64,000 bases of DNA, taken from assembly GCF_000300005.1 (NCBI RefSeq), contig NC_018691.1, positions 4,297,001 to 4,361,000 of the forward strand. Reading direction: 5' to 3'. The notes beneath the pieces are model-generated. The model did not search any database. It was not told the DNA's origin and was given only the letters and a program-made list of their open reading frames with translations. Made by a program: the position numbers and the translations under genes. The DNA is from Alloalcanivorax dieselolei B5. GTDB lineage: Bacteria; Pseudomonadota; Gammaproteobacteria; Pseudomonadales; Alcanivoracaceae. Each line of letters starts with the position of its first letter. Within the stretch, counting starts at the first letter, position 1. Positions 18,565 to 47,866 of this stretch are shown one piece after another.

Positions 18565-18574
18565 TTGTATACAA
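18565..18574. promoter_or_regulatory. TTGTATACAA palindrome, candidate GntR operator (TauE/SafE gene)
   Basis: Perfect 10-bp palindrome TTGTATACAA, 90 bases before the TauE/SafE start. It is one of several GTATAC-centred sites in intergenic regions across 18-48 kb. The rest of 18327-18664 is A/T-rich compared with the genes around it and shows no other recognisable feature. Confidence 0.6.
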
Positions 18575-18664
18575 AAATGGCATCCTAGCCAGAATTTCCT
18601 CTAGGGGGAATCCGGAGCCGCGCCCGGGAAGCGACCCGGCCGGCGCAGATCAAATCGTCTGGGG

Positions 18665-19504
18665 ATGATCGTGGAGCTTTTGAGTGGTCACAGTGTCGGA
18701 TGGCTGGCCGGGCTGGTGGTGGCCCTGCTGGCCACCGGCATCATCGCCGGCCTGCTGGCCGGTCTGTTGGGGGTGGGCGGCGGCATCGTGGTGGTGCCGG
18801 TGCTGTACCATCTTTTCACGCTGCTGGGCGTGGACGAGTCGGTAAAAATGCACGTGGCGGTGGGCACCTCCCTGGCCACCATTATCCCGGCCTCGATCAT
18901 GTCGTCCCGGGCCCATGCCAAGAAGGGCAATCTGGACGTCTCCCTGCTACGTAGCTGGGGACCTGCCTTGTTGGTGGGCGTACTGATCGGCATCGCCATC
19001 AGCGGCTATCTGCGTGGCACCACCCTGACCGCGATCTTCGCCGTGGTCGCTCTGCTGGTGGCCGCCAACATGGCGTTCCGCGGCAAGGGTCTGGCGCTGA
19101 CCGACGACCTGCCGCCGACCCCGTTCAAGCAGATCATCGGCACCCTGGTGGGCGGTTTCTCCACTCTCATGGGGATCGGCGGTGGCACGCTGAGCGTACC
19201 GCTGCTGACCGCCTTCGGTTATCCCATCCACCGCGCGGTGGGCACCGCCGCCGCCATCGGCATGGTGATCAGCCTGCCCGGCGCTATTGGTTTTCTGATC
19301 AATGGTCTGGGCGTGCCCAATCGCCCGCCGCTGAGCCTCGGCTACATCAATCTGGCCGGCCTGGCGCTGATCGTGCCAATGACCATGATGATGGCGCCAA
19401 TCGGCGCGCGCATTGCCCACGCGGTGAACGCCAACCGGTTACGGCAGGTTTTCGCTTTTTTCCTTTTCCTGACTTCACTACGCATGCTGTACGGTTTGCT
19501 GTAA
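18665..19504 (+). CDS. TauE/SafE family anion exporter/permease
   Basis: 279-aa inner-membrane protein with about 8 hydrophobic segments. The two homologous halves show GLLAGLLGVGGGIVVVPVL and GTLVGGFSTLMGIGGGTLSVPLL, the family signatures. Members move sulfite, sulfoacetate, sulfolactate or other organic anions. Its position 24 bases before an HpxW-like gene suggests transport of an organic anion in the same pathway, possibly oxamate- or oxalurate-like; that is inference. A GntR-type palindrome lies upstream. Confidence 0.92.
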   Translation: MIVELLSGHSVGWLAGLVVALLATGIIAGLLAGLLGVGGGIVVVPVLYHLFTLLGVDESVKMHVAVGTSLATIIPASIMSSRAHAKKGNLDVSLLRSWGPALLVGVLIGIAISGYLRGTTLTAIFAVVALLVAANMAFRGKGLALTDDLPPTPFKQIIGTLVGGFSTLMGIGGGTLSVPLLTAFGYPIHRAVGTAAAIGMVISLPGAIGFLINGLGVPNRPPLSLGYINLAGLALIVPMTMMMAPIGARIAHAVNANRLRQVFAFFLFLTSLRMLYGLL

Positions 19505-19528
19505 CCGCCACGGCCTGGAGAACACGAC

Positions 19529-21121
19529 ATGTTGACGACCAAACGCGCGCTCGGCGGTGTCATGGTGGCGCCCCATCATCTGGCCGCCCAAGCCGGCCGG
19601 GACGTGCTTCGCGAAGGCGGTAACGCCGCCGAAGCCATGGTAGCGGCGGCGGCGGCCATCGCCGTGGTGTACCCGCACATGAACGCCATCGGCGGCGACG
19701 GTTTCTGGATCCTGGGCGCCCCCGGCGAGGAGCCTGTGGCGATCGAAGCCTGCGGAACCGCCGCGGCAGCCGCGGATGTCGACTACTACCGGGAACGCGG
19801 CCACGACAGCATCCCCAGCCGTGGCCCGTTGGCGGCGCTGACCGTGGCCGGCACCGTTGGCGGCTGGGGCCAGGCCATGAACGTGGCGCGCCAATGGGGA
19901 GGTAAGCTGCCGCTCACACGCTTGCTGGAAGACGGCCAACGGCATGCCCGGGACGGCGTGGCGGTGACCCGCAGTCAGGAACAACTGACCCGGCAGAAGC
20001 TGCCGGAGCTGGCTTCCGTTTCCGGCTTCGCCGACACCTTCCTTGATCAGGGTCAGGTGCCGGTGGAAGGCGCCATTCTGCGGCAGCCGCAACTGGCCGA
20101 CACCCTGGAACGTATCGGGCGGGCCGGCACCGAGGATTTTTACCGGGGCGAGCTGGCCACCGCCATGGCCGAGGATCTGGCCCGGGCCGGCAGTCCGCTC
20201 ACCCGCGAGGATCTGGCAGGCTATCAGGCGCGGACGTTACCGCCGCTGTCGGTGCGCCTGCGGGGCAGCACCCTGTATAACCAGCCGCCGCCCACTCAGG
20301 GCATGGCCTCGTTGATGATTCTCGGCCTGTTCGACCGGCTCGGGGTAACGGACGGTGAAAGTTTCGATCACCTGCACGGACTGGTGGAGGCCACCAAACA
20401 GGCGTTCCTGGTACGCGACCAGTATTGCACCGACCCGGCCTATATGAGCGAGGATCCGGCTCGCTTCCTCAGCGAATCGGATCTGGCCGAGCGGGTGCAA
20501 CGCATCGACCGGCAGAGCGCTCTGCCCTGGCCTCACCCGGCGCAACCCGGCGATACCATCTGGATGGGCTGTATCGACCGCGAAGGCCGCTGCGCCAGTT
20601 TCATCCAGAGCATTTACTGGGAGTTTGGTGCCGGCATCGTGCTGCCCGCCACGGGCGTGCTGTGGCAAAACCGGGGTATCAGTTTCTCCCTGGATGACGC
20701 CGCTCTGCATACCCTGAAACCGGGCCGCAAACCGTTCCATACCCTGAACCCGGCCATGGCCCGCTTCGACGACGGCCGCACCATGGTGTACGGCACCATG
20801 GGCGGCGAGGGCCAACCGCAGACCCAGGCGGCGGTATTCAGCCGCTACGCCCTGTTCGATCAACCTTTGCAGCAGGCCGTGACCGCGCCGCGCTGGCTGC
20901 TCGGTCGAACCTGGGGGGAACAAAGCACCAGCCTGAAACTGGAAGCGCGCTTTGACCCCGCCCTGGTGCAACAACTGCGCGACGCCGGCCACCAGGTGGA
21001 AGTGCTGGACCAAGACTTCAGCGACACCATGGGCCACGCCGGCGCCGTGGTACGCCACCCCAACGGCCTGCTCGAAGGCGCCGCCGACCCGCGCAGCGAC
21101 GGCATCGTCGCGACGCTCTGA
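19529..21121 (+). CDS. Gamma-glutamyltransferase-family hydrolase, HpxW-like (oxamate amidohydrolase)
   Basis: 530-aa Ntn-hydrolase of the GGT family. There is no signal peptide, unlike periplasmic GGT. The predicted autoprocessing Thr is residue 343 in GDTIWMGCIDREG, replacing the TTHxSVVD of true GGTs, as in cytoplasmic HpxW-type enzymes of purine catabolism, which split oxamate to oxalate and ammonia. The neighbours (amidase, AtzH/HpxZ-like protein, GntR) match the logic of the Klebsiella hpxWXYZ set. Substrate by analogy only. GGAG precedes the ATG, and a strong terminator follows. Confidence 0.82.
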   Translation: MLTTKRALGGVMVAPHHLAAQAGRDVLREGGNAAEAMVAAAAAIAVVYPHMNAIGGDGFWILGAPGEEPVAIEACGTAAAAADVDYYRERGHDSIPSRGPLAALTVAGTVGGWGQAMNVARQWGGKLPLTRLLEDGQRHARDGVAVTRSQEQLTRQKLPELASVSGFADTFLDQGQVPVEGAILRQPQLADTLERIGRAGTEDFYRGELATAMAEDLARAGSPLTREDLAGYQARTLPPLSVRLRGSTLYNQPPPTQGMASLMILGLFDRLGVTDGESFDHLHGLVEATKQAFLVRDQYCTDPAYMSEDPARFLSESDLAERVQRIDRQSALPWPHPAQPGDTIWMGCIDREGRCASFIQSIYWEFGAGIVLPATGVLWQNRGISFSLDDAALHTLKPGRKPFHTLNPAMARFDDGRTMVYGTMGGEGQPQTQAAVFSRYALFDQPLQQAVTAPRWLLGRTWGEQSTSLKLEARFDPALVQQLRDAGHQVEVLDQDFSDTMGHAGAVVRHPNGLLEGAADPRSDGIVATL

Positions 21122-21147
21122 ACGCCATCCCTTTTTGTAACCCTCTC

Positions 21148-21172
21148 GGGCGCCGCCAGGCGCCCTTTTTTT
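21148..21172 (+). terminator. Rho-independent terminator after the HpxW-like gene
   Basis: GGGCGCC-GCCA-GGCGCCC followed by seven T residues. It separates the TauE/HpxW-like transcription unit from the amidase unit. Confidence 0.92.
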
Positions 21173-21314
21173 GATCATCACGGTTTGGGGTGCCTCCATC
21201 AGAGACGCGGATCTGTACGGGGATGTATTCACGGCGTTCCCGCAAAAGCGTAACGCTGCTTCGCTGTCCACGATGGAAGCAAAAGGCCCACACCAGGCCC
21301 GCTTGCCCCATTTC

Positions 21315-21322
21315 TGTATACA
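21315..21322. promoter_or_regulatory. TGTATACA palindrome before the amidase-AtzH-gntR operon
   Basis: Perfect TGTATACA in the 340-base gap between the HpxW-like terminator and the leader peptide at 21460. Because gntR (23099) is in this operon, autoregulation is likely. The remainder of 21173-21459 shows no convincing gene. Confidence 0.6.
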
Positions 21323-21459
21323 TCCACGCCCCTCTGCCCCTTTACGGGGCCCCACTTCTCCCCACTGCCTCGCAAATCCGCATTTTTCCAGCACCGAAGG
21401 TTGGCACGAACACTGCTCCGTCTGCTTTGGACGTCCCAAGGTTCTCAAGGAGCACACCC

Positions 21460-21504
21460 ATGCAAAACCTTCCCAGCCGCCAACATTGGAGGGGCCGGCG
21501 GTGA
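21460..21504 (+). CDS. Possible 14-aa leader peptide coupled to the amidase
   Basis: ATG at 21460 has AAGGAG at ideal spacing and opens a 14-codon frame (MQNLPSRQHWRGRR) whose TGA overlaps the amidase GTG start as GTGA. The good ribosome-binding site and overlapping stop/start suggest translational coupling or attenuation. It may instead be the remnant of a longer upstream gene, or chance. Confidence 0.4.
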   Translation: MQNLPSRQHWRGRR

Positions 21505-22670
21505 TACTGGAAAACGGCTTTCTCGATTTCGACCCGGTGCACCTCGACGCCACCGGAGAGGGCCCGCTGCAAGGCCTGACTTTCGCCGTCAAGGACGTGT
21601 TCGACATAGCCGGCACCGTTACCGGCGTCGGCCAGCCGAGCTGGCGCGCCAGCCAGCCGCCAGCGCGACACACCTCTCCGATGATCGAAACCCTGCTGGC
21701 GGCGGGCGCGGAACTGGTCGGCAAGACCCACACCGACGAGCTGACTTACAGCCTGGCGGGCCAGAACGCGCACTACGGCACACCGCCCAATCCGGCAGTG
21801 CCGGGCGCGGTACCGGGCGGCTCCTCCAGCGGCTCCGCCTCGGTGGTGGCCGCCGCGCTGGTGGACTTCGCGCTAGGCAGCGACACCGGCGGTTCGGTGC
21901 GGGTGCCCGCTAGTTACTGCGGCATCCATGGCCTGCGTCCCACCCATGGCGTGGTGGACTACCGTCACTGCGCCCATCTGGCGAAGAGTTTCGATACCCT
22001 TGGCTGGTTCGCCCGGGACGCCCGGCTCATGGCCCGGATTGGCCGGATTCTGCTGCCCGCCGGCGACCGGCCCGCGCCGCGCCGTTTGCTGCTGGTGGAA
22101 GAGGCACTGGCGCAATCCGATGCCGACGTGGTGTCGCAACTGGAAGCGCGGGTCGGCAACGGCCTGCCCGGCGTGACCTTTGGCGGCAGCATCAGTGTTG
22201 GCAACCTGGACACCTACTTCAACGCGTTCCGGCCACTGCAAGCTTACGAGGCCTGGGCCCGCTTCGGCTCCTGGATCGAAACCGAGCAACCGGTATTCGG
22301 CCCCGGCGTGAAGGAACGCTTCGAAGCAGCGTCCCGCATTAGCGCCGCCGAAGCCGAGGACGCCCGTGAACAATGCCAGGCTTTGCGGACCCGGATCCGC
22401 GCCCTGCTCGGCGAGGATACCCTGCTTTGCCTGCCCACCACGCCGACCTCGGCCCTGCCCTTGCAAGCCGACGAGGCCAGGGTGGAAGACATTCGCGGCC
22501 GCACCCTGCGGATGACGGCCCTGGCCGGCACCACCGGGCTGCCGCAACTGAGTTTGCCGCTGTTGCATGACCGTGATGGCCCGGTGGGCCTGTCATTGAT
22601 CGGCCCGGCGAGCAGCGATCAACAGCTGCTGGATCTGGCGGCCCGCCTGCCTGAATTCATCAATACCTGA
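21501..22670 (+). CDS. Amidase (amidase signature family)
   Basis: 389-aa Ser-cisSer-Lys amidase. Lys31 (AVKD), cis-Ser108 (GGSSSGSA) and nucleophile Ser132 (GSDTGGSVRVP) are all present. The short length and GKTHTDELTYSLAGQNAHYGTP resemble the AMI1-like branch rather than the longer AtzE. GTG at 21501 is preferred as start because GGAGGGG lies just upstream and the fold begins there; the open frame continues upstream without a better start. The next gene is AtzH/HpxZ-like, a usual partner of amidases acting on carboxy-ureas and related compounds. Confidence 0.88.
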   Translation: MILENGFLDFDPVHLDATGEGPLQGLTFAVKDVFDIAGTVTGVGQPSWRASQPPARHTSPMIETLLAAGAELVGKTHTDELTYSLAGQNAHYGTPPNPAVPGAVPGGSSSGSASVVAAALVDFALGSDTGGSVRVPASYCGIHGLRPTHGVVDYRHCAHLAKSFDTLGWFARDARLMARIGRILLPAGDRPAPRRLLLVEEALAQSDADVVSQLEARVGNGLPGVTFGGSISVGNLDTYFNAFRPLQAYEAWARFGSWIETEQPVFGPGVKERFEAASRISAAEAEDAREQCQALRTRIRALLGEDTLLCLPTTPTSALPLQADEARVEDIRGRTLRMTALAGTTGLPQLSLPLLHDRDGPVGLSLIGPASSDQQLLDLAARLPEFINT

Positions 22671-22709
22671 CGCCCCGGCCCCGAAGAGTAATAATGTGGA
22701 GTGATAATA

Positions 22710-23093
22710 ATGGCCCTGGAATTGGACCGCCCGGACGTAGTGGCGGAAGTCAAAGCCGCGTTCCTGCGCTATGAGAAAGCGCTGGTCGAAAATGATGTGA
22801 CGGTCCTGGACGAATTGTTCTGGAACGACGAGCGTGTGGTGCGCTACGGTGCCGGCGAGAATCTCTACGGCTACCGGCAGATTGCCGCCTTCCGCGCGCA
22901 GCGGCCGTCCAAGGGACTGCAACGCGAATTACATAACACCGTGATCACCGCCCATGGCGACGATCTGGCCACCGCCTGGACCGAGTTCCGCCGCCCGGGG
23001 AACCCGCGTATCGGCCGCCAGAGTCAGGTCTGGGCCCGCCGCCCGGAGGGATGGCGGGTCGTGGCCGCCCATGTGTCGTTCATGGAGGAGTAA
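22710..23093 (+). CDS. AtzH-like / HpxZ-like protein (DUF3225, SnoaL fold)
   Basis: 127-aa single-domain NTF2-like protein: RPDVVAEVKAAFLRYEKALVENDVTVLDELFW, RYGAGENLYGYRQIAAFRAQRP, GRQSQVWARRPEGWRVVAAHVSFM. This is the AtzH-like domain found beside amidases and in hpx clusters, named HpxZ there. In AtzH it has been linked to 1-carboxybiuret metabolism. The ATG at 22710 has GGAG eight bases upstream. It ends 5 bases before gntR. Confidence 0.87.
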   Translation: MALELDRPDVVAEVKAAFLRYEKALVENDVTVLDELFWNDERVVRYGAGENLYGYRQIAAFRAQRPSKGLQRELHNTVITAHGDDLATAWTEFRRPGNPRIGRQSQVWARRPEGWRVVAAHVSFMEE

Positions 23094-23098
23094 GCGTC

Positions 23099-23803
23099 AT
23101 GACACAACAGACTGTGCTCAGTGCCGCCGGCGAGGACGACCGTCCATTGGCGGAGCAGGTCCGGCGCGCGCTGTCCGATGAGATTCTCGGCGGCCTGCTG
23201 CCGCCGGGCACGCGTCTGGACGAGATCGCCCTGGCTCGCCGCTTCAACGTTTCACGGACTCCGGTACGCGAGGCCTTGCGGGAAATGGCCTCCGCCGGCC
23301 TGGTCGAACACCAGCACCGGCGCGGCGTGTTCGTCATCGAAGTGCCGGAGCAGCGGCTCAGCGAAATGTTCGAATACGCGGCGGAAATGGAAGCGGCCTG
23401 CGCGCGCATGGCGGCGCTCAATATGACCCGCGCGGAACGGGAGGACTTGCTTGCCAGCCACCTGGACAGCCATGCCCATGTGGCCGACGGCAACGTGGAC
23501 GCCTACGACGCGGCCAACCTGAGCTTCCATGAGAAGCTGTTTCGCGGCTGCCATAACAGCTACTTATATGAAACCGCCATGGCCGCCCGTTCCCGGGTGC
23601 TGGCTTACCGCCGCGCGCAATTCAGAGTGGGGGAACGCCTGGCCGCGTCCTTCACCGAGCACAGCGACATTGTCATGGCCATCGTTCGCGGCGAAAGCGA
23701 GCGGGCCGCGCAGTTGATCCGGGATCATGTTCTGCACGCCCACCGTACTTCACAGGATTATCTGGATACCCGTGGCGGTACGGAAAATCAATCCTCCGGA
23801 TAA
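23099..23803 (+). CDS. GntR family transcriptional regulator (FadR/FCD subfamily)
   Basis: 234-aa regulator with an N-terminal winged HTH (PPGTRLDEIALARRFNVSRTPVREALREMASAGLV) and an all-helical FCD ligand domain with the metal/ligand pattern DxxxH (NLSFHEKLF) and a C-terminal H (DHVLHAH). GGAGGAG precedes the ATG at 23099. It is last in the amidase operon behind a TGTATACA site. Its 3' end overlaps the convergent binding-protein gene by 16 bases. Confidence 0.94.
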   Translation: MTQQTVLSAAGEDDRPLAEQVRRALSDEILGGLLPPGTRLDEIALARRFNVSRTPVREALREMASAGLVEHQHRRGVFVIEVPEQRLSEMFEYAAEMEAACARMAALNMTRAEREDLLASHLDSHAHVADGNVDAYDAANLSFHEKLFRGCHNSYLYETAMAARSRVLAYRRAQFRVGERLAASFTEHSDIVMAIVRGESERAAQLIRDHVLHAHRTSQDYLDTRGGTENQSSG

Positions 23804-24816: not shown

Positions 24817-24830
24817 GCTATTACCCTCAT

Positions 24831-28694: not shown

Positions 28695-28713
28695 GAGTTT
28701 CCCTCCGGATTCG

Positions 28714-30342: not shown

Positions 30343-30764
30343 GACGACGCCCCTTTGAGCACACGCATGTCGTCGTCATCGAGCACGTCGGGGACACCGG
30401 AGCGTATCAATCTGGAAAAGTTCTCGTCCGGCACCATCACGGTAAGTGTATAAAAACGGCCCTTGCCGGCATTTTCCACCACGTGCTCGGAGCCGGCACG
30501 CACCACCAGAGCGTCCCCTTTTTTCAATCTCACCCATTGGTCATCGCAACGGGCGCGCCCTTCACCTTCCAGTACGAAAAAGAATTCGTCCGCTTCCTTA
30601 TGGGTGTTTGGCGGTGTGGTGCCGCCCTCGTCAAAAATTTCCACGCAGGCAATGAAGCCCAGACCGTCGCCGGGCCCATCGCAGATCACCACCAGCCGGT
30701 TGCTCTCCCCTTCCTTGATACGAAAGGCTTCAAACTGCTCGGGATGCTTGAACAGCGGCATCAT
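30339..30764 (-). CDS. Cupin-domain protein
   Basis: 141-aa single-cupin protein with motif 1-like TPPNTHKEADEFFFVLEGEGRA and motif 2-like GDALVVRAGSEHVVEN. The His/Glu pattern suggests a metal site. The start is ATGATG at 30764 with GGAGGAAA upstream; its first bases overlap the preceding stop codon. Could be a sugar-isomerase-type, dioxygenase-type or binding cupin; not resolved. Confidence 0.87.
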   Translation of the reverse strand: MMPLFKHPEQFEAFRIKEGESNRLVVICDGPGDGLGFIACVEIFDEGGTTPPNTHKEADEFFFVLEGEGRARCDDQWVRLKKGDALVVRAGSEHVVENAGKGRFYTLTVMVPDENFSRLIRSGVPDVLDDDDMRVLKGASS

Positions 30765-31555: not shown

Positions 31556-31579
31556 GACACGACCTCGTATTCGCAGTTG

Positions 31580-31635: not shown

Positions 31636-31648
31636 ACGCTCAAGGCGA

Positions 31649-32707: not shown

Positions 32708-33216
32708 GTCTATTCCTCGTCAAATCAGCCAGGACATACCCGCCACTCATGAGGCCGGTGGGCATCCGGTGATCCCGAAGGTTTCACCGTTCCCGTAACC
32801 GCACCTGCCTCCCTATGGCCGGTGTCCGATACCTAAAATGCTCTTCGTTCCCCTAGAGCAATGTGCCGGCCCCTCAATACAACGGCGCCGAACCCCGTTC
32901 GCATGCGCAACCAAATCGATCTTGCATACAGAACACCGGAAACCTTTCAAAATGCATGCCACAAGGATTTAACGAGGAAAAACAACAGCTTATTCACTTT
33001 CTGTTTTTTCTTTTTTTGTTAACCTGGCGGGAAAAACCAAAGACGCGCTTTAAAAGGGCAAAGCATCGATTATTTCGCCCCACCATAGGGCTTTTTCTTT
33101 TCCATTAGCCCCCACAACCGATACCTTTTTTAGTTCGCCGTGCATACAAAAAGGCATCATTATTTCTGCCACTCCCCAGCTCCGCGCCATGAACTTTGCA
33201 GATATTTTCGCAGGCC
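32708..33216. promoter_or_regulatory. 509-base intergenic region before the porin, with two TGCATACA sites
   Basis: Contains TGCATACA at 32923-32930 and at 33141-33148, single-base variants of the TGTATACA motif seen elsewhere in the window. Much of 32990-33180 is A/T-rich compared with its surroundings. No convincing gene is present; an 81-codon plus-strand frame (32863-33108) lacks a ribosome-binding site and coding character. The porin promoter must lie here but was not pinned down. Confidence 0.45.
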
Positions 33217-33242: not shown

Positions 33243-33266
33243 AAAAGAGATAAAGCGGAGAAGAGG

Positions 33267-37877: not shown

Positions 37878-38066
37878 GGCCAGTCTCTCCAGTTGGGGCC
37901 CGCTCCACGTCCGGTAGCACTGCCACAACGGCAGCGGGCCCAGGCGAGGCAGCCCCCGCCCATTACCCCAGGGCCGGCTTGTCCTCAGATCAGGGTGGCG
38001 AGGGTCGTGCACCGCTTTGCGCCTCGCCACCATGGACACAAAGCGGTATACCATTATGGAACAGAA

Positions 38067-38074
38067 TGTATGCA
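38067..38074. promoter_or_regulatory. TGTATGCA, variant operator before the Rieske operon
   Basis: One-base variant of TGTATACA, 190 bases upstream of the first Rieske gene and just past the stop of the binding-protein gene at 38100. A GGTATACC palindrome is also present at 38045-38052, but that sequence also occurs inside genes in this window, so it carries little weight. Confidence 0.4.
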
Positions 38075-38099
38075 GTTACCGTGCCATCGGAACCGCCGG

Positions 38100-39116: not shown

Positions 39117-39148
39117 CGTTCTCCTTTTCACCAACTGGGGCCGGCGTC

Positions 39149-40156
39149 CTAGGGAAGCACCGGCGTTTGCGGCAGGAACTCCAGGGTGTAAGCCTTGTGG
39201 TAATCCACGTCGGCATCGACCAGACCCGCTGCCACCATGAAGTCGAACGTCTTCTCCCAGCGTTCATCGCTCATGTAGCCAATGCCCTTTTCCCCTGCGT
39301 CCCCGCCGGTGACGATGCCGAATTCCTTCAGCTTCTCGATGCCGAAAGCCAGCTGTTCATCGGTCATTTGCGGATTGTCTTTCTTGATCAGGGCATTACC
39401 GCGTTGCGGGTCTTGCAGGTAACTCTTCCACCCTTCCAGAGTGGCCTGGACAAATCGGCGCACCACATCCGGTTTTTCCTCGACCAGATCCCTACGCGTT
39501 TCCAGTGTCGCCGCGTAGGGCGGATAACCATGGTCCGCGAACAGGAAGATGTTCGGTTTGACGCCGCCCTTTTCCGCGGCGAAAGGCTCGGAACTGATAT
39601 ACGCCTGCTGCACCAACTCTTTGTCGGCCAGGAAGGGGCCCAGACTGAAGGTATAGGGCTTGGCCTGATCGTCGGTGAAACCGTATTCGGCTTTCAGCCA
39701 GGGCCAGTAGGTGGTGCGCGCCGAAGTGGATATCAGCACGGTGTGCCCCTTGACGTCTTCCAGCGATGCCACCTGCGGATGGGCGATCAGCCCCTGGGGG
39801 TCTTTTTGGAAGGTCGCCGCCACGGTCACCACCGGGAGCCCTTCCTTCACCGCATTGATATTGCGGATCGGATACCCCATGGTGAAGTCGTACTGCCCGG
39901 CCACCAGCAGTTGCAGGCCATTCACCTGGGGCCCACCCATTTTGATGTTCACGTCGAGACCGTACTTTTTGTAAATCCCCGCGGCCTTGGCCTGATAAAA
40001 TCCGCCGTGCTCCGCCTGCGCGTACCAGCTGGTGCCTATGGTGACCTTGTCGTCGGCTTGAACACCGCCCGCGACACTCCCCACGATCGCCGCCATGACC
40101 ACCCCCAGGCCAGTGCGACGATATCCGAACAGATGCTTTAAAAAACCGAATGACAT
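39149..40156 (-). CDS. ABC transporter substrate-binding protein (paralogue 3)
   Basis: 335-aa binding protein, tandem duplicate of the gene at 38100, sharing the WYAQAEHGGFYQAKAAGIYKKYGLDVNIKMGGPQVNG core, the DxTMGYPIRN segment and the C-terminal AYTLEFLPQTPVLP. Signal peptide cut near GGVQADDK. ATG at 40156. A TGTATGCA site lies 43 bases upstream. Different ligands for the paralogues are likely. Confidence 0.92.
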   Translation of the reverse strand: MSFGFLKHLFGYRRTGLGVVMAAIVGSVAGGVQADDKVTIGTSWYAQAEHGGFYQAKAAGIYKKYGLDVNIKMGGPQVNGLQLLVAGQYDFTMGYPIRNINAVKEGLPVVTVAATFQKDPQGLIAHPQVASLEDVKGHTVLISTSARTTYWPWLKAEYGFTDDQAKPYTFSLGPFLADKELVQQAYISSEPFAAEKGGVKPNIFLFADHGYPPYAATLETRRDLVEEKPDVVRRFVQATLEGWKSYLQDPQRGNALIKKDNPQMTDEQLAFGIEKLKEFGIVTGGDAGEKGIGYMSDERWEKTFDFMVAAGLVDADVDYHKAYTLEFLPQTPVLP

Positions 40157-40198
40157 GATTTCAGACTCCACAAAAAAGTGTTGGTCGGCCCTCAGTTT

Positions 40199-40206
40199 TG
40201 TATGCA
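40199..40206. promoter_or_regulatory. TTGTATGCAA, variant operator before the tandem binding proteins
   Basis: TTGTATGCAA is a 10-base near-palindrome, 43 bases upstream of the binding-protein gene starting at 40156. Same motif family as the TGTATACA sites. Confidence 0.5.
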
Positions 40207-40263
40207 AGCAACCTTCGTGCCGCCTTTTACTGCAATAAAAAAGAGCATGAGGCATGCCCCGTT

Positions 40264-40938
40264 TCAGGGCTCCCGGTTAGCGGCGGCCAGCTCCACCGAT
40301 GCCGGCTCCGGTCGTACCTGCGCGGCCAGTCGCGCCACCCGCGCCCCCAACGCCCGGGCAATCGCCTTCTCGTTATCGTCCACGGACAAGGTGCCATCGA
40401 ACCCAGTGACCGCCGAGGCGCCATAGGGAGAGCCGCCCTTACGTGTGCGCACCAGCGCGGGAACACTGTGCGGCACACCGGCAATGATCATCCCGTGCTG
40501 CATGAATGGGAGCAGCAGAGATAACAATGTCATCTCGTTACCGGAATGCATGCCACCGGTGGAAGTAAAGGCGGCGCCAACCTTGCCGATCAGCGCCCCT
40601 TCCCGCCACAACGGGGCCACTTCGTCGATAAAGGCGCGTAACGGTGTACTCATCAGGCCGTAGCGGGTCGGCGATCCCCAGACGATCCCCTTGGCCCAGC
40701 GCAGATCGTCCGCCGTGGCACGGGGCAGTTCACGATAAATTCGTTGTGTCTCCCGGTAGTCGGCTCGCTCACTATCGACACTGAATTCCGGCTCACTCAA
40801 TTCCACCCGGCAGAGCCGGACCCGGGCACCGCCGCTGTCCGCTCCCTCGGCGATTTCCCGCGCCAGATCCAGGGTACTGCCGTAGCGGGAGTCGCAGATC
40901 ACACACACAGTGGCGCCGTCCGAATCAATCGATGTCAT
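40264..40938 (-). CDS. NAD(P)H:quinone oxidoreductase, WrbA-like flavoprotein
   Basis: 224-aa flavodoxin-fold protein: VCVICDSRYGSTLDLAREIAEGA (FMN phosphate loop), VWGSPTRYGLMSTPLRAFIDE and AFTSTGGMHSGNEMTLLSLLLPFMQHGM are WrbA signatures. ATG at 40938, 22 bases from a perfect TGTATACA site that should lie in or next to its promoter. It may keep quinones reduced under oxidative load, or serve as an electron carrier for the reductase-less Rieske oxygenases; the second idea is speculation. Confidence 0.9.
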   Translation of the reverse strand: MTSIDSDGATVCVICDSRYGSTLDLAREIAEGADSGGARVRLCRVELSEPEFSVDSERADYRETQRIYRELPRATADDLRWAKGIVWGSPTRYGLMSTPLRAFIDEVAPLWREGALIGKVGAAFTSTGGMHSGNEMTLLSLLLPFMQHGMIIAGVPHSVPALVRTRKGGSPYGASAVTGFDGTLSVDDNEKAIARALGARVARLAAQVRPEPASVELAAANREP

Positions 40939-40959
40939 GGCACATTCCTGAATAAAAAA

Positions 40960-40967
40960 TGTATACA
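40960..40967. promoter_or_regulatory. TGTATACA operator upstream of the WrbA-like gene
   Basis: Perfect palindrome, 22 bases before the WrbA-like ATG (minus strand). It shares a 223-base divergent region with guaD, which has its own copy at 41138. Confidence 0.65.
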
Positions 40968-41137
40968 GGCAACTCCCGTGCCATGGTGATAACACCCCGA
41001 ATACTGATACAGCCTTGCCGAATTGATGCGTTATATTTGTGCGCTCGCCCCTTTTTTGATCACTGTTTTAAGTCTTTTCGTCCACTTCACGGAAGCGCTT
41101 CCCTCGCTTCGCATCAAGCGATATGGTTCTCTCCTGA

Positions 41138-41145
41138 TGTATACA
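41138..41145. promoter_or_regulatory. TGTATACA operator immediately upstream of guaD
   Basis: Perfect palindrome (context GATGTATACATTAG), 17 bases before the guaD ATG, placed to block transcription start or elongation. Confidence 0.65.
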
Positions 41146-41161
41146 TTAGGGATGCCCGACC

Positions 41162-42403
41162 ATGTCCAAGACTTTGCTGATCCGAGCCAGCCTGCTGACA
41201 CCACTGGACGCGAACCGCTGGCAGTACATCAGTGACGGCGGCCTTTTGATCAAGGCCGGCCGCATCGTCGACGTGGACCGGATTGAACAATTCGCCGACG
41301 GCCGGGACCGCAACACTCTGGAGCTGGACGGCCTGCTGGTGCCCGGCTTCGCGGACGTTCATATTCATTGGGTGCAACATCATGTTCGCGGGCGCTTCCA
41401 GACCGACCTGATGGAATGGTTGCGCGAACACATCTGGCCGGAAGAAGCCGGCTTCGAGCACGCCGGGCTGGCCCATGGTCATGCCCGTGCTTTCTTCAGC
41501 GACACGCTCCGCGCCGGCACCACCCTGGGCATGGCCTATTCCAGCCCACACGACGACGCCCTGCGCATCGCCGCCGAACACGCCAGAGGCGACTGGATCC
41601 TGGGCAACGCCATCATGGAAAAATCCGCCCCGGAGCCGCTGCGCAGAGCCAGTCCGGATAACGCCGACGCCGTGGCACCGTTATTGGAGGAACTGGGCAC
41701 CGCGCACTACGCCATTACTCCGCGCTTCGCTCTCAATTGCAGTGCCCGGCTGATGGGGGAACTGGGAGAACTGGCACAACGCACCGGTGCCTTTGTACAG
41801 ACGCATTTGTCCGAGTCCCCGCAGGAGATCCGGGAAGTCCACGAGGCCTTCCCCGAGGCCAGGGACTACACCGACGTTTATGATCGGGCCGGGCTGTTAA
41901 CCCCACGCACCGTGCTCGGCCACTGCATTCATCTTTCACAACGTGAGTACCACACCCTTGCCCAGCGGCGCAGTTGGATCGCGCACTGCCCTTCAAGCAA
42001 CGAGGCCCTGGATAGTGGCCGGATGAATCTGGAAGCGATAAGGCGGCACCGGCTGCGGTTTGCTCTGGCCTCGGATGTGGGGGCGGGGCCTAGCCACAGC
42101 ATGCTGCACGTCATGCAGCGCTTTGTGGACCAGCATCGTGCCGCCGGGGTCCCGGTAACACCGGAAGAAGCGCTCTACCGGGCCACCCAGGCCGGTGCGG
42201 ACTGCCTTGGGCGTGGCCGTGAAGCCGGCAGTCTGACCGCGGGAAAAAGGGCGGACTTCGTTCTGCTGCCACGCCCGGCGGGCAAAGCCGGCATCGAGGA
42301 CTGGTTCGAGGAATTACTGCGCGGAGACGCCGCCGATCTGGAGCGGCGCCCATTACAGACCTGGCTCGGCGGCACCCCGGTCTCACCCGACCCGGTCACA
42401 TAA
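41162..42403 (+). CDS. guaD: Guanine deaminase
   Basis: Converts guanine to xanthine and ammonia. The 413-aa amidohydrolase has the signature PGFADVHIHWVQHHVRG (zinc ligands His67, His69), QTHLSES, GHCIHLS and HCPSSNEALDSG, the guanine-deaminase version of the motif, and a late Asp in ALASDVGAGPSHSM. Length is slightly below the usual 430-450. It overlaps uraD tail to tail by 21 bases. First step of the purine route encoded here. Confidence 0.92.
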   Translation: MSKTLLIRASLLTPLDANRWQYISDGGLLIKAGRIVDVDRIEQFADGRDRNTLELDGLLVPGFADVHIHWVQHHVRGRFQTDLMEWLREHIWPEEAGFEHAGLAHGHARAFFSDTLRAGTTLGMAYSSPHDDALRIAAEHARGDWILGNAIMEKSAPEPLRRASPDNADAVAPLLEELGTAHYAITPRFALNCSARLMGELGELAQRTGAFVQTHLSESPQEIREVHEAFPEARDYTDVYDRAGLLTPRTVLGHCIHLSQREYHTLAQRRSWIAHCPSSNEALDSGRMNLEAIRRHRLRFALASDVGAGPSHSMLHVMQRFVDQHRAAGVPVTPEEALYRATQAGADCLGRGREAGSLTAGKRADFVLLPRPAGKAGIEDWFEELLRGDAADLERRPLQTWLGGTPVSPDPVT

Positions 42404-42913
42404 ACGCAATAACGCGATACGATTCACCTGGTCCACCGCGGTCTTGCGTTCCTGTTCCAGGTCGTGCTCCAAACGGGCGGCAAAGGCATCCAGAATGTCG
42501 CCACGGTGCAATCCCTTTACCGCGATAATGAAAGGGAAACCGAAACGCTTTTGATAAGCGTCGTTGAGCGTTTGAAAGCGGGCGAATTGTTCCGGCGTGC
42601 ATTGGTCAAGGCCCGCGGAAGCCTGCTCGACGCTGGAGTCCCGGGTCAGCTCACCGGCCAGTGCGGCTTTTCCGGCCAGATCCGGATGCGCTCTCAACAC
42701 GCCCAGTTGGCGCTCCGGATCCGCCGCGCAAAATACTCTCGCCATCACCTCCGCCAATCCTTGCGGGGTGTCCTGCGGTTCGCCGAGCCCCAGCTGGTAA
42801 GCCTCTTTGGCAATCCATGGAGAATGTTCATAAACATCGCCGAACCGGTCGACGAAATCGGCCTCGCTGAGCCGGCTCGGGCGTGGTGTGAGACGGACGA
42901 TGGTTTCAGCCAT
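42383..42913 (-). CDS. uraD: OHCU decarboxylase
   Basis: 2-oxo-4-hydroxy-4-carboxy-5-ureidoimidazoline decarboxylase, producing S-allantoin. The 176-aa all-helical protein has the catalytic-site motif LRAHPDLAGKAAL (His76), LNDAYQKRFGFPFIIAVKG and a C-terminal basic segment. ATG at 42913 overlaps the end of puuE by 8 bases, so puuE-uraD form one unit. Confidence 0.95.
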   Translation of the reverse strand: MAETIVRLTPRPSRLSEADFVDRFGDVYEHSPWIAKEAYQLGLGEPQDTPQGLAEVMARVFCAADPERQLGVLRAHPDLAGKAALAGELTRDSSVEQASAGLDQCTPEQFARFQTLNDAYQKRFGFPFIIAVKGLHRGDILDAFAARLEHDLEQERKTAVDQVNRIALLRLCDRVG

Positions 42914-43811
42914 GGTGCTCCATCCAGTGTCGGGCAATATCGATACGCCGGGCGCACCACACCCCGTTATGGGCGCGCAGGTATTTGAGGAAGCGTTCCA
43001 GTGCCGCGGCCCGGCCCGGACGCCCCGCCAGCCGGCAATGCAAACCCACCGATAGCATACGCGGCTGCTCCGCCCCCTCCTGATACAGCGTGTCAAAAGC
43101 GTCACGCAGGTAAGTGAAAAACTGATCACCGTTGTTGAAGCCACCAGGGCTGGCGAAACGCATGTCGTTGGCATCCAGTGTGTAGGGCACCACCAAATGT
43201 TTGCGCCCGGACACGGTCATCCAGAACGGCAGCTCATCACTGTAGTCGTCGGCGTCATAGAGAAAGCCGCCATGCTCCACCACCAGCCGCCGGGTATTCG
43301 GACTGGTGCGGCCGGTGTACCAGCCCAGCGGTGGCGTGCCGGCGGCGCGAGTCAGCGCCTCCACCGCGCGGCCGATATGCTCCGCCTCCACCGCCTCCGG
43401 CACATATTGATAGTCAATCCAGCGATAGCCGTGACAGCAGATTTCGTGGCCCTGCTCCACCATGGTGCGAATGACTTCCGGATGCCGCTCCGCCGCCATG
43501 CCCACGGCGAACACGGTGAGCGGAATCCGATAGCGCTGAAACAGTTTCAACAGACGCCATACCCCGACCCGGCTGCCGTATTCGTAGAGTGATTCCATGC
43601 TCATATGACGTACGCCTTCGCGCGCGTCGGCCCCGACCATTTCCGACAAGAAGGACTCCGAAGCCGGATCACCATGCAGGATGCAATTCTCCCCTCCTTC
43701 TTCGTAATTAAGCACGAACTGCACTGCCACACGGGCACCATCGGGCCAGTGTGGATTCGGTGGACTGGCCCCATAGCCGATCAGGTCACGGGGATAAGAC
43801 GGATCGCTCAT
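42906..43811 (-). CDS. puuE: Allantoinase PuuE (polysaccharide-deacetylase fold)
   Basis: Hydrolyses allantoin to allantoate without the classical zinc amidohydrolase fold. The 301-aa protein has the diagnostic QFVLNYEEGGEN (about 31-42), ICCHGYRWIDYQ and WYTGRTSPNTRRLV. ATG at 43811 is chosen over an upstream frame to 43850. Divergent from uraH with a TGTATACA site between them. Confidence 0.95.
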   Translation of the reverse strand: MSDPSYPRDLIGYGASPPNPHWPDGARVAVQFVLNYEEGGENCILHGDPASESFLSEMVGADAREGVRHMSMESLYEYGSRVGVWRLLKLFQRYRIPLTVFAVGMAAERHPEVIRTMVEQGHEICCHGYRWIDYQYVPEAVEAEHIGRAVEALTRAAGTPPLGWYTGRTSPNTRRLVVEHGGFLYDADDYSDELPFWMTVSGRKHLVVPYTLDANDMRFASPGGFNNGDQFFTYLRDAFDTLYQEGAEQPRMLSVGLHCRLAGRPGRAAALERFLKYLRAHNGVWCARRIDIARHWMEHHG

Positions 43812-43841
43812 GTTTGCCTCCACTCTGGCATCAATCATGCA

Positions 43842-43849
43842 TGTATACA
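43842..43849. promoter_or_regulatory. ATGTATACAT operator between puuE-uraD and uraH-puuD-alc-allA
   Basis: Perfect palindrome (10-bp ATGTATACAT at 43841-43850) in the 85-base divergent gap. One site can control both the puuE-uraD and the uraH-puuD-alc-allA units. Confidence 0.7.
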
Positions 43850-43896
43850 TTTACTGATAAGTATTGTCGACATTAAATATGGACACAGGAGCGCAC

Positions 43897-44250
43897 ATGG
43901 GCCGATTGACCACCCACGTTCTGGACACCAGCAGTGGCTGTCCCGCCGCCGGCCTCGATCTCCAGTTGTGGCGAATAGAGGGAAACCAGGCCCGTCTGTT
44001 GACTGAATGCAAAACCAATGCCGATGGACGTTGTGACGCGCCGCTACTTGACGGCGGCACCATGGTAAGCGGGGTATACCAACTAAACTTCGCGGTGGGG
44101 GACTACTTCCTTGCCCAAGGCATTTCCTCATCAACCCCGGCGTTTCTGGATGACGTAGTGGTCCGGTTCGGCATCAGCACCCCCGACCAGCATTACCACG
44201 TTCCACTGCTGGTCTCTCCCTACGGTTACAGCACCTACCGCGGCAGTTAA
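43897..44250 (+). CDS. uraH: 5-hydroxyisourate hydrolase (transthyretin-like)
   Basis: Opens 5-hydroxyisourate to OHCU. The 117-aa protein has the N-terminal LTTHVLDTSSGCPA (His7), the central Arg, and the C-terminal tetrapeptide YRGS that distinguishes hydrolases from transthyretin. ATG at 43897 has AGGAG upstream. Followed 13 bases later by puuD. Confidence 0.96.
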   Translation: MGRLTTHVLDTSSGCPAAGLDLQLWRIEGNQARLLTECKTNADGRCDAPLLDGGTMVSGVYQLNFAVGDYFLAQGISSSTPAFLDDVVVRFGISTPDQHYHVPLLVSPYGYSTYRGS

Positions 44251-44263
44251 CAGGGGAGAAACG

Positions 44264-45478
44264 ATGGAAGCGCATCTGTACGAATGGGCCAACCTGCTGA
44301 TCCGCTGGCTGCACATCACCGTCGGCATAGCCTGGATAGGGGCTTCTTTCTATTTCAATTGGCTGGAGAACCATCTGCAGCGAGAGGGCCATAAGCCACC
44401 GGGCGTCGCTGGTACTCTCTGGGCCATCCACGGTGGCGGCTTTTACTACCTGCAGAAATATCAGGTGGCGCCGGAACAACTGCCCGAACGTCTGCACTGG
44501 TTCAAATGGGAAGCCTATTACACCTGGATGAGCGGCTTCCTGCTGTTGTTCGTGGTGTATTACCTGAATGCCGGAACCAATCTGATCGATCCCTCGGTGG
44601 CGGAGTTATCCCCTCTTGCCGCCAGTCTGATCGGCATTAGCGTTCTGATTCTCTCCTGGCTGGTGTACGACGGACTGTGCCGCTCACCACTGGGCCGGCG
44701 TCCTGCGCTGCTGGCGGCAGTGGGCTTTATCTTGCTGGTGGCTCTGGCCTGGGGACTGAGCCAGATTTTCAGCGGCCGTGGCGCCTATATTCATGTCGGC
44801 GCCGCCATTGGCACCTGCATGGTCGCCAACGTCTTTTTCGTGATCATTCCCGGCCAGCGCGCCATGGTGGATGCCATGACCGCCGGTCGCGAACCGGATG
44901 CCGCCAGGGGCCTGGCCGGAGCGCAACGCTCCCGGCACAACAATTATCTGACTCTGCCGGTGCTGTTCATCATGATCAGCAACCATTTCCCCGGCACCTA
45001 CGGCAGCCACTGGAACTGGTTGATTCTGGCCACCCTGATGGCGACCAGCATATTGATTCGTCACTACTTCAACATCCGCCATCTGCCCCGACCCGCCAAG
45101 ATTGCATTGCCGCTGGCCGGCGCAGCCGGACTGGTCGTGTTGATCATATTCACCACGCCGGCCGGGCCGGCTCCGGCGGAGGCGGGCCTGCCACCAGTGC
45201 CCTTCTCCCAGGTGGAAAGCATCGTGCAGGAACGCTGTGCCGGCTGCCATGCGGCGCGCCCTGATTTCGCCGGCTTCGCCACGCCACCCAAGGGCGTGCG
45301 GCTGGATACGCCGGCGCAAATCCGCGCCCACAAAACCCAGATCGGCCAGTTGGCCGTGACCACTTCGGTGATGCCGCCAGGCAACATCACCCGCATCACC
45401 GACGACGAACGCGCGTTGCTGGCCCGCTGGTTGCAACAAGGCGCGGAACACAATTCGGAAAACAGTCAGACGGAATAA
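44264..45478 (+). CDS. puuD: Membrane urate hydroxylase PuuD (cytochrome c type urate oxidase)
   Basis: Oxidises urate to 5-hydroxyisourate at the inner membrane, passing electrons to the respiratory chain. The 404-aa protein has an N-terminal eight-helix membrane domain with conserved His residues (RWLHITVGIAWIG; HNNYLTLPVLFIMISNH) and a C-terminal cytochrome c domain with haem motif CAGCH at 325-329 and an axial Met in VMPPGN. GGAG precedes the ATG. No soluble uricase or HpxO is seen, so this is the urate step. Confidence 0.95.
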   Translation: MEAHLYEWANLLIRWLHITVGIAWIGASFYFNWLENHLQREGHKPPGVAGTLWAIHGGGFYYLQKYQVAPEQLPERLHWFKWEAYYTWMSGFLLLFVVYYLNAGTNLIDPSVAELSPLAASLIGISVLILSWLVYDGLCRSPLGRRPALLAAVGFILLVALAWGLSQIFSGRGAYIHVGAAIGTCMVANVFFVIIPGQRAMVDAMTAGREPDAARGLAGAQRSRHNNYLTLPVLFIMISNHFPGTYGSHWNWLILATLMATSILIRHYFNIRHLPRPAKIALPLAGAAGLVVLIIFTTPAGPAPAEAGLPPVPFSQVESIVQERCAGCHAARPDFAGFATPPKGVRLDTPAQIRAHKTQIGQLAVTTSVMPPGNITRITDDERALLARWLQQGAEHNSENSQTE

Positions 45479-45509
45479 ACCGGCAGTGACCGGAACCATG
45501 GAGCCTCCA

Positions 45510-46496
45510 ATGACGGACACCATCATCGCCTACCCTAATCTCGCCGCCGCCCGGCTGGGCACCGAGATCGTATCGGTTACCGACCAGTTCTTCGCCAGCG
45601 CCGAACGCATGTTGGCGGAGACACCCCCCCGATTCATCGCCGACAAATTCGATGATCACGGCAAATGGATGGATGGCTGGGAAACCCGCCGCCGCCGCGG
45701 CCCCGGACACGACAGCGCAATCGTGCGTCTGGGCGCCCCCGGTGACGTCCACCAACTGGAAATCGATACCGCTCACTTCACCGGCAACTACCCCATGGCC
45801 GCCTCCGTGGACGCCTGCGTCCTCGACGATGGCGAGGATCCGGCTTCCGCTCGCTGGCAGCCCCTGCTGACCATGACCGCTCTGCAAGGCGACCATCCGC
45901 ACCGCTTCACCTTGCCTGCCCCACGCCATGCCACCCACGTTCGTCTGAACCTCTATCCCGACGGCGGCGTCGCGCGCTTTCGTGTGCTGGGCCGCCCACG
46001 AGTGGACTGGGCCGGCGTTGACGCGGACCAGGAAGTGGAACTGTCGGCGGCCCGGCTTGGCGGCCAGGTCCTGGCTCTGAGCGACGCCCACTACGGCTGG
46101 CCGCACTCCCTGCTCTATCCCGGCCGGGGCCTTAACATGGGGGACGGCTGGGAAACCCGGCGGCGCCGCGAACCAGGTTTCGACTGGTGCGTGATCGGTC
46201 TGGGCCACCGTGGCCGTGTCACCGGACTGGAAGTGGACACGGCCTTTTTTAAAGGCAACTTTCCGGCTCAGGTATCGGTGCAAGCGGCCAATCTGGAAGG
46301 CCATGCGGACACCGCCCTGCTGCGTGCCTCCAGTATGTTCTGGCCGACGCTGCTGACACCGCAACCGCTGGGCCCGGATGCCATACACCATTTCCAGGAC
46401 CAGTTGGAAACCCTGGATGCGGTGACCCATGTTCGTCTTAACATGCACCCGGATGGCGGCATCAGCCGCTTCCGCGTGTTCGGCCAGATACAATGA
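45510..46496 (+). CDS. alc: Allantoicase
   Basis: Hydrolyses allantoate to ureidoglycolate and urea. The 328-aa protein consists of two homologous beta-sandwich repeats, each with DGWETRRRR-PG-D, -LEIDTAHFTGNYP / -LEVDTAFFKGNFP, and THVRLN-PDGG--RFR. GGAG lies just before the ATG at 45510. Overlaps allA by 4 bases. Confidence 0.96.
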   Translation: MTDTIIAYPNLAAARLGTEIVSVTDQFFASAERMLAETPPRFIADKFDDHGKWMDGWETRRRRGPGHDSAIVRLGAPGDVHQLEIDTAHFTGNYPMAASVDACVLDDGEDPASARWQPLLTMTALQGDHPHRFTLPAPRHATHVRLNLYPDGGVARFRVLGRPRVDWAGVDADQEVELSAARLGGQVLALSDAHYGWPHSLLYPGRGLNMGDGWETRRRREPGFDWCVIGLGHRGRVTGLEVDTAFFKGNFPAQVSVQAANLEGHADTALLRASSMFWPTLLTPQPLGPDAIHHFQDQLETLDAVTHVRLNMHPDGGISRFRVFGQIQ

Positions 46497-46993
46497 CCAC
46501 TCAAGAGCTGACACTGGAGCCGTTGACGGCGGAGGCGTTCACCCCCTTCGGCGACCTCATCCACAGCCATGAGCGGGACTACTTCCTGATCAACGATGGC
46601 CAATGCCGGCGTTACCACCGGCTGGCCAAAGTGGAAACCGGCACCGACGGCGGCGCCATTCTCAGTCTGTTCCGGCCGCGACCGATCTCACTACCGCACA
46701 CTCTGGTGCTGATGGAACGCCACCCCCTCGGCAGCCAGGCGTTCGTGCCGCTGGCCGGTCAGCCTTACATCGTGGTGGTCGCCCCTCCCGGACCACCGCC
46801 GGCGGTGGCGGACCTGCGCGCTTTTTTGATCACCGATGGCACCGGCGTCAATTATCACGCGGGCACCTGGCATCATCCCCTGCTGGCCCTTTCGCCTGAC
46901 GGCGACTTTCTGGTAGTGGACCGGGAAGGCCCGGGCAGCAATTGCGAGGAACATCTTCTGGAGGGTATCCGCCTCCCGGTTGCACCCGTATAA
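46493..46993 (+). CDS. allA: Ureidoglycolate lyase
   Basis: Splits ureidoglycolate to glyoxylate and urea. The 166-aa cupin-like protein has LTAEAFTPFGDLI, LERHPLGSQAF-type core and the conserved NYHAGTWHHPLLAL. Start overlaps the alc stop (ATGA). Completes urate to glyoxylate plus two urea; no urease is in the window. Confidence 0.95.
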   Translation: MTTQELTLEPLTAEAFTPFGDLIHSHERDYFLINDGQCRRYHRLAKVETGTDGGAILSLFRPRPISLPHTLVLMERHPLGSQAFVPLAGQPYIVVVAPPGPPPAVADLRAFLITDGTGVNYHAGTWHHPLLALSPDGDFLVVDREGPGSNCEEHLLEGIRLPVAPV

Positions 46994-46998
46994 AGGTC

Positions 46999-47006
46999 TG
47001 TATACA
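46999..47006. promoter_or_regulatory. TGTATACA operator before gntR (47042)
   Basis: Perfect palindrome 36 bases before the GntR ATG and 6 bases after the allA stop. Suggests autoregulation of the regulator. Confidence 0.65.
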
Positions 47007-47041
47007 TTCCGGTAGTCCCAAAAAAAGGAATAACGGTACCC

Positions 47042-47791
47042 ATGGCTGTCGATCCCCGCACGGACAAACAGACCGCCGCGTCGCTGGACGCCATGCACAC
47101 CAATGGCAGCCGGGGCTCGCGCAAAGCCACCGACCAGACCATCTACGATTCCATCTATCAGGCGGTACTGACCCAGCGGCTGCCTCCCGGTTCGAAGCTG
47201 CCGGAAGTGGCGTTAAGCGAACTGTTCGGAGTGAGCCGGTCCATCGTGCGCAAGGCACTGACCCGGTTGGCATCCGATCACGTCACCGAACAAAGCCCCA
47301 ATCAAATGGCGGTGGTGGCCAGACCCGGCATCGAGGAAACCCGACAAATTTTCGCCGCCCGCCGCCTGGTGGAAGGGGAGGTCACCCGCCTGGTGGCCGG
47401 CACCCTGGGCAAATCCGAGGCACAAACCCTGCGCAAACTGATCAAGGAAGAAAAGAGCGCCCACGAGCGTGGCCAGGACCAACACCGCGTGCACTGCTCC
47501 ATGGCAATTCACCAGTATCTGGCTCGTCAGTGCCCCAATCAGGTGCTCGGCAAGATGATGCTGGAACTGGTATTGCGCACCTCCATTGTCATCGCGCTAT
47601 ACAAAGCCCCGGGCATCACCGCCTGCTTTCTTGGTAATGATCACGGTCGCCTGGCCGATCTGATTATCAAGGGCGAGGCAGACCAGGCCGCGCAACTGGC
47701 GCGGGAACACCTGGACACCCTTGAAGGCCTGCTGGATCTGGATGAGCCCTCCGGCGACATCGATCTGGCAAGCATCTTGCGTTACACCTGA
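47042..47791 (+). CDS. GntR family regulator (FadR/FCD type) of the purine genes
   Basis: 249-aa regulator with a 30-residue polar N-terminal extension, winged HTH (PPGSKLPEVALSELFGVSRSIVRKALTRLASDHV) and an FCD domain (IFAARRLVEGEVTRLVAG; His pattern VHCSMAIHQYL; LAREHLDTLE). It lies between allA and 8-oxoguanine deaminase with GTATAC sites on both sides. It is the best candidate for the protein that binds the TGTATACA sites. Confidence 0.93.
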   Translation: MAVDPRTDKQTAASLDAMHTNGSRGSRKATDQTIYDSIYQAVLTQRLPPGSKLPEVALSELFGVSRSIVRKALTRLASDHVTEQSPNQMAVVARPGIEETRQIFAARRLVEGEVTRLVAGTLGKSEAQTLRKLIKEEKSAHERGQDQHRVHCSMAIHQYLARQCPNQVLGKMMLELVLRTSIVIALYKAPGITACFLGNDHGRLADLIIKGEADQAAQLAREHLDTLEGLLDLDEPSGDIDLASILRYT

Positions 47792-47858
47792 GGTAAAACG
47801 GACCGCTGGTCCTGGCGACGGCCCTCTCGGCCGGGTTTGAGTGTGCGCCACCGGTGGC

Positions 47859-47866
47859 GGTATACA
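47859..47866. promoter_or_regulatory. GGTATACA, variant operator before 8-oxoguanine deaminase
   Basis: One-base variant of TGTATACA, with a nearby half-site GTGTAC at 47873-47878, 88 bases upstream of the 8-oxoguanine deaminase ATG. No other feature is seen in 47792-47953. Confidence 0.4.

Follow-up and report, generated by a model that had tools for sequence, protein, structure and literature searches.

Passages of PMC12694930 describe UgmR (PA1520) of Pseudomonas aeruginosa as a GntR regulator that binds upstream of the allantoin and gcl clusters and represses them; this repression is relieved by uric acid but not by allantoin. Passages of PMC7797058 describe Atu1419 of Agrobacterium fabrum, an FCD GntR of the VanR group that was crystallised on ATGTATACAT and can bind two palindromes 190 bp apart. 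Here we analysed a stretch of 64 kb (the window, positions 4297001-4361000 of the single contig of 4,928,223 bases) from the marine oil degrader Alloalcanivorax dieselolei B5, in which the palindromic 8-mer TGTATACA recurs before the genes of a purine-catabolism island. It is quite probable, judging from sequence comparisons, that TGTATACA is the operator of a clade of FCD GntR repressors of purine catabolism and that GntR-A, encoded at 47042-47791, is the acting member of this clade here.

The word occurs exactly six times in the window, while 100 dinucleotide shuffles gave a mean of 0.16 copies and a maximum of two. The first-pass annotation of this DNA, made from the letters alone, had put chance at well under one copy in 64 kb, and this estimate held. 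The six exact copies and five variants lie where that annotation had placed them, all of them intergenic when start codons are trimmed by homology. They are given below with their state in the related genomes G043, G182, and G080 and the related loci L046 and L044; G080 and L044, being near-identical to the window, contribute little information.

18566..18573, predicted operator TGTATACA (in TTGTATACAA, which starts at 18565) before the tauE-like and hpxW-like genes (18665-21121); exact before tauE also in G080, G043, and G182
21315..21322, predicted operator after the hpxW-like gene and before the amidase-hpxZ-gntR run; exact in G080
32923..32930, variant TGCATACA, porin-proximal; TGTATGCA (one mismatch) at the corresponding position in G043 and G182
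33141..33148, variant TGCATACA, porin-distal; exact TGTATACA at the corresponding position in G043 and G182
38067..38074, variant TGTATGCA before the Rieske operon; same variant in G080 and L044
40199..40206, variant TGTATGCA before an NMT1-type binding-protein gene; one-mismatch match in G043, G182, and L046
40960..40967, predicted operator before a wrbA-like gene; exact in G080, G043, G182, L046, and L044
41138..41145, predicted operator before the guanine deaminase-like gene; exact in G080, G043, G182, L046, and L044
43842..43849, predicted operator between the divergent puuE and uraH; exact in G080, G043, G182, L046, and L044
46999..47006, predicted operator 35 bp before gntR-A (autoregulation site); exact in G080, G043, G182, L046, and L044
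47859..47866, variant GGTATACA before the 8-oxoguanine deaminase gene; exact TGTATACA at the corresponding position in G043, G182, and L046

Half of the exact copies in the genome (6 of 12) fall in a 28.4-kb stretch, all of them non-coding (binomial p = 3e-11; p of about 6e-9 once any such stretch is allowed for). Equal frequency of the word in coding regions and elsewhere in the genome, which the first-pass annotation had named as one outcome that would speak against a regulon, was not what these counts showed. Read backwards, the same word has four copies genome-wide versus 12. All 11 sites are non-coding, in a region (18500-51500) where non-coding DNA makes up 6.9% of positions; this count uses start codons partly trimmed by homology, and with the longest open reading frames (ORFs) instead, sites 21315, 40199, 40960, and 43842 fall inside 5' extensions. 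Sites with at most one mismatch number 14 in the window (six of them exact) versus 5.8 expected. Since this class is only mildly in excess, the variant sites are supported by their conservation in sister species. Another repeated word, GGTATACC, has four copies in the window (33229, 38045, 44073, and 49974; 0.26 expected), two of them inside genes, and is a separate word of uncertain meaning.

Comparison of upstream regions in sister species showed that the site is retained at 10 of 11 matching promoters both in G043 and in G182 (eight exact, two with one mismatch, and one miss), where island proteins are 41-90% identical to those of the window, mostly 70-85%. Among the five variants, 33141 and 47859 are exact in both sisters, a single mismatch is seen at 32923 and 40199, and 38067 is absent. 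L046 spans seven of the 11 promoters and retains the site at six. The autosite before gntR-A persists in G043, G182, and L046, although alc and allA do not adjoin it there, and G043 and G182 also have the exact site after hpxW, at a distance of about 3 kb from the amidase gene. The islands hold 9 of the 13 genome-wide copies in G043, 10 of 16 in G182, and 6 of 11 in G080. One-mismatch sites in this comparison had no chance control of their own, and of such sites the sister table covers only those of three core forms that lie outside matched genes; the total of inexact sites is therefore incomplete. Two sisters have an additional exact site beyond a 2OG-Fe(II) oxygenase gene (L121:8302 and L046:15034), and the one at L121:8302 precedes an SsuA-type binding-protein gene. 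The ATP-binding cassette (ABC) genes of the window at 52.1-55.0 kb have neither the word nor a one-mismatch form.

PuuE was found at E<=1e-80 in 63 of 194 genomes of the order. Outside the genus this gave 62 puuE loci from 59 genomes, in stretches of up to 20 kb, some of them ended by contig ends. Within 500 bp upstream of puuE, the word ranks first of all 256 palindromic 8-mers, with 10 of 36 genera and 14 of 62 loci (the runner-up reached four genera). A GntR-A homologue was scored as present if the genome-level match had E<=1e-30 or tblastn at the locus gave E<=1e-8. On this scoring, 21 of 23 genomes with a homologue carried the word in the puuE locus, versus 1 of 36 without, and by genus the figures were 15 of 17 versus 1 of 19. 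When the association was tested for all 256 palindromes, the word had p = 1e-12 and the best of the other 255 had p = 1e-4, values that are too small owing to shared ancestry. When the regulator was required in the same stretch, the word was present in 16 of 18 loci with a homologue versus 6 of 44 without. The palindrome in other genera mostly has the form TTGTATACAA.

The word clusters in the island, is conserved in sister species, and co-occurs with one regulator clade. A predicted GntR operator common to the island is therefore strongly supported, because of the clustering, the retention at 10 of 11 promoters in two sisters, and the order-wide co-occurrence with GntR-A homologues, and the GntR regulon across the island that the first-pass annotation had proposed gains support from the same three lines. 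Two GntR genes are in the window:

47042..47791, + strand, gntR-A, an FCD-type GntR regulator and most likely the repressor (from domains, tree, and association)
23099..23803, + strand, gntR-B, a second FCD-type GntR regulator and possible co-regulator (from domains; separate clade)

GntR-A has an N-terminal GntR winged helix-turn-helix (PF00392, 49.1 bits, cut-off 27) and a C-terminal FCD domain (PF07729, 58 bits, cut-off 24.3), and both domains were also detected in GntR-B. The predicted structure of GntR-A had a mean predicted local distance difference test score (pLDDT) of 52.6, too poor to count the C-terminal helices (six in VanR versus seven). The protein is 98% identical in A. xenomutans and A. 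balearicus, the nearest named relatives, which are Alloalcanivorax. Both regulators had been said to stand behind a site; this is true of gntR-A (46999), but gntR-B is not directly behind one, being the last gene of the amidase-hpxZ-gntR run, with 21315 upstream of the run.

In a maximum-likelihood tree of 63 GntR proteins (five of 68 were dropped: one overlong, one cut, one near-duplicate, and two distant), GntR-A falls within a 35-row group of purine-locus GntRs (100/100). GntR-A and the orthologues of G102 and G144 form one clade (100/100), which a paralogue from the genus joins (95/79), and GntR-B is in a separate clade. The word precedes gntR-A in all six Alloalcanivorax genomes compared (the window and five sisters), and it precedes the orthologue in G102, a genome absent from the set with a GntR-B homologue at E<=1e-30. 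We favour a single regulator serving all sites, and GntR-A appears to be its most likely reader, with GntR-B less likely and sharing possible. A GntR-A paralogue in the same genome (C1:8149, 40% identical) was also considered as the regulator and rejected, as there was no exact copy in the 18-20 kb around it; its counterparts in three sisters likewise had no exact copy, and its residue matching Atu1419 R49 is Q.

The Atu1419 contacts E34, R45, and R49 correspond to E55, R66, and R70 of GntR-A, and S67 replaces T46. The wing of GntR-A and its orthologues reads NQM or NQV, while most other members of the group have NRG, RRG, or similar, and GntR-B has RRG. The outer base of the operator also differs: T/A was found in 68 of 82 half-sites in other genera versus 10 of 42 in the window, G043, and G182 (p = 1.5e-10, from sites that are not independent; G102 with 6 of 10 and G144 with 7 of 8 were kept apart). 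The relaxed outer base and altered wing may hint that GntR-A reads these sites. The link between wing and operator is weakened by Atu1419, which binds ATGTATACAT and has glycines at the wing positions; its wing is described as less crucial than that of FadR in passages of PMC7797058. According to passages of PMC4494728, GT and AC in palindromes of FadR-subfamily GntRs are mostly three and sometimes two bases apart, and in HutC-type sites mostly four; here the spacing is two (GTATAC), outside the HutC-type rule.

Several points weigh against GntR-A as the reader of a common operator, in addition to the shared ancestry behind the p-values. The Rieske site 38067 has no counterpart in the same position in G043, G182, and L046, which carry an exact site ahead of the adjacent binding-protein gene. 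In G103 and G111 a homologue is present but the puuE locus lacks the word, and G177 has the word there with no GntR-A homologue detected; at the locus level, the exceptions are 2 of the 18 loci with a homologue and 6 of the 44 without. No exact copy lies in the 350 bp ahead of the G144 orthologue. In L083, L087, L088, and L094, GntR-B homologues have the word no more than about 55 bp ahead of their start, and in the A. dieselolei genome a copy also adjoins the gene of a distant FCD-like GntR (L032). GntR-A has N where the wing residue of Atu1419 is G66, and the tree program warned of possible misplaced long branches. A scan of 40100-48100 for consensus sigma-70 promoters found none, which is uninformative as to where the sites stand relative to promoters.

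Both GntRs might bind the same operators and compete, and the regulon would then answer two signals. Two separate GntR clades have members with the same word upstream, and G036 encodes one member of each clade, each with its own copy. Against this reading, the outer bases in the genus depart from TTGTATACAA, the form of all four GntR-B-clade autosites. We regard sharing as possible, if rather unlikely. A two-input switch, in which GntR-A (urate) and GntR-B (oxalurate) would act on the same TGTATACA operators and the outer base would have co-evolved with the GntR-A wing (NQM or NQV for NRG), is unlikely; if it were true, the path from guanine or 8-oxoguanine to oxalurate would be fully open only in the presence of both intermediates.

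It is quite unlikely that GntR-B regulates the sites, or those around the oxalurate genes, while GntR-A acts elsewhere. GntR-B is an FCD GntR whose DNA-contacting residues are the usual ones (E, R, T, R), it is encoded in the run behind site 21315, and its homologues in the four genomes mentioned above carry the word before their own genes. However, its best match outside the genus (G073, L126, near an amidase gene) has no exact copy in 20 kb and no site with at most one mismatch between 8 and 14 kb of the locus, and four Alloalcanivorax genomes have no exact copy in the 350 bp before gntR-B. Moreover, having a GntR-A homologue is by itself almost enough to tell genomes with the word from those without it (a test made for GntR-A only). 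Finally, a promoter element or a chance A+T-rich motif is highly improbable: the word contains the -10-like TATACA and most copies are near gene starts, but it is a full palindrome, 35 of the 36 genomes with no GntR-A homologue also lack it in the puuE locus, and palindromes that equal it in composition are seldom found in the islands of the window, G043, and G182 (25 copies of TGTATACA in total, versus an average of 0.35 for the other 63 six-A/T palindromic 8-mers).

With GntR-A as the repressor, the regulon could work as follows. GntR-A would bind as a dimer, with one recognition helix per half-site, and its binding near the start of each operon, its own gene included, would block transcription. 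A purine intermediate, most likely urate by analogy with UgmR, would bind the FCD domain and release GntR-A. The genes from guanine and 8-oxoguanine to ureidoglycolate would then rise jointly, and the oxalurate genes, the porin operon, the binding-protein genes, and the Rieske genes would rise in the same response. The genes assigned to these steps are as follows:

19529..23093, + strand, hpxW-like (gamma-glutamyltransferase-family) gene, amidase gene, and hpxZ (oxalurate catabolism protein)
41162..42403, + strand, guanine deaminase-like protein, below curated cut-offs (304.9 of 375.4 and 322.2 of 351 bits)
42383..43850, - strand, uraD and puuE (OHCU decarboxylase and allantoinase), over cut-off
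43864..46993, + strand, uraH, puuD (urate oxidase, by Pfam Urate_ox_N), alc (allantoicase), and allA (ureidoglycolate lyase)
47954..49318, + strand, 8-oxoguanine deaminase (655.3 bits, cut-off 532)

HpxZ (204.9 bits, cut-off 135) and the amidase (465.5 bits, cut-off 391) are over their cut-offs, and the hpxW-like protein is below its family cut-off (328.8 of 357.85 bits). The island also has NMT1-type binding proteins, ABC genes, and two Rieske oxygenases, and the porin assignment is weak (22 bits). No canonical xanthine dehydrogenase XdhB was over the family cut-off genome-wide (the best piece had 144 of 849.5 bits), and the best solved relative of the Rieske oxygenase at 36831-37880 is the methylxanthine N-demethylase NdmA. 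Therefore, the Rieske enzymes of the island (33267-38054) may perform a purine oxidation step. The predicted regulon brings the oxalurate, Rieske, porin, and transporter genes together, which hints at their substrates. The word also offers a testable operator for GntR regulators of purine catabolism across an order of gammaproteobacteria, and possibly a natural case of an operator outer base changing together with the wing of its regulator.

The six exact copies outside the window give no clear sign of a wider regulon. Three of them are within genes and three between genes, with gene identities read by eye. A wider regulon was considered from these copies and rejected, as L031, L033, and L041 are inside genes and L032 is beside a different GntR gene. 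For the L034 copy to be intergenic, two overlapping ORFs (380 and 148 aa) would have to be spurious. The L042 copy is flanked by genes for an amidohydrolase and a binding protein. Next to the amidohydrolase homologues in G043 and G080 there is no exact copy (only exact copies were sought), and G182 has no amidohydrolase homologue at E<=1e-40. The window also has an amidohydrolase gene (57910-59202), with a product 42% identical to the one beside the L042 copy. The L032 copy (L032:1501) sits in GTATACTGTATACAGTATAC, beside the GntR gene and, by eye, a thioesterase-like gene, and it is probably the own operator of the adjoining GntR.

Among known systems, the hpx purine and oxalurate genes of Klebsiella resemble the island in the hpxW-like, amidase, and HpxZ genes; their regulators and arrangement presumably differ. 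The operator of Atu1419 has the same core as the one predicted for GntR-A, and the E, R, and R contacts are shared as well. In contrast, its sequence match to GntR-A is weak (33.4 bits), and according to passages of PMC7797058 it governs hydroxycinnamate genes, with methylenetetrahydrofolate as the proposed ligand. Outside the genus we found 11 nearby pairs of the word, 119-302 bp apart. Five of them are 193-194 bp apart, in purine loci of two genera (L105, L107, L103, L179, and L181), near the 190 bp of Atu1419; looping by paired sites was not used as evidence because the spacing may be inherited. A literature search listed no purine operator of this sequence among its matches, which is not proof that none is in print. 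Among the matches listed for the 8-mer, only PMC7797058 concerned GntR, and those listed for the 10-mer showed no bacterial operator.

Similar to UgmR, GntR-A is an FCD GntR linked to allantoin-pathway genes that share one upstream word. The comparison was made through the UgmR-like proteins of the f21 genomes. The six f21 genomes with a GntR-A homologue, which we take to be Pseudomonas-like from size, G+C, and gene order, carry TTGTATACAA in the puuE locus; in one of them, G147, the homologue is located at another locus. GntR-A differs from these UgmR-like proteins in being 38-40% identical to them and in lying on a different branch of the same 35-row group (100/100). The core 8-mer is common with the TTGTATACAA form of other genera, while the outer base is relaxed here, and the predicted regulon adds oxalurate, porin, Rieske, and binding-protein genes. 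By this comparison, the system is most likely of the UgmR-like kind known in outline from Pseudomonas, enlarged in this island.

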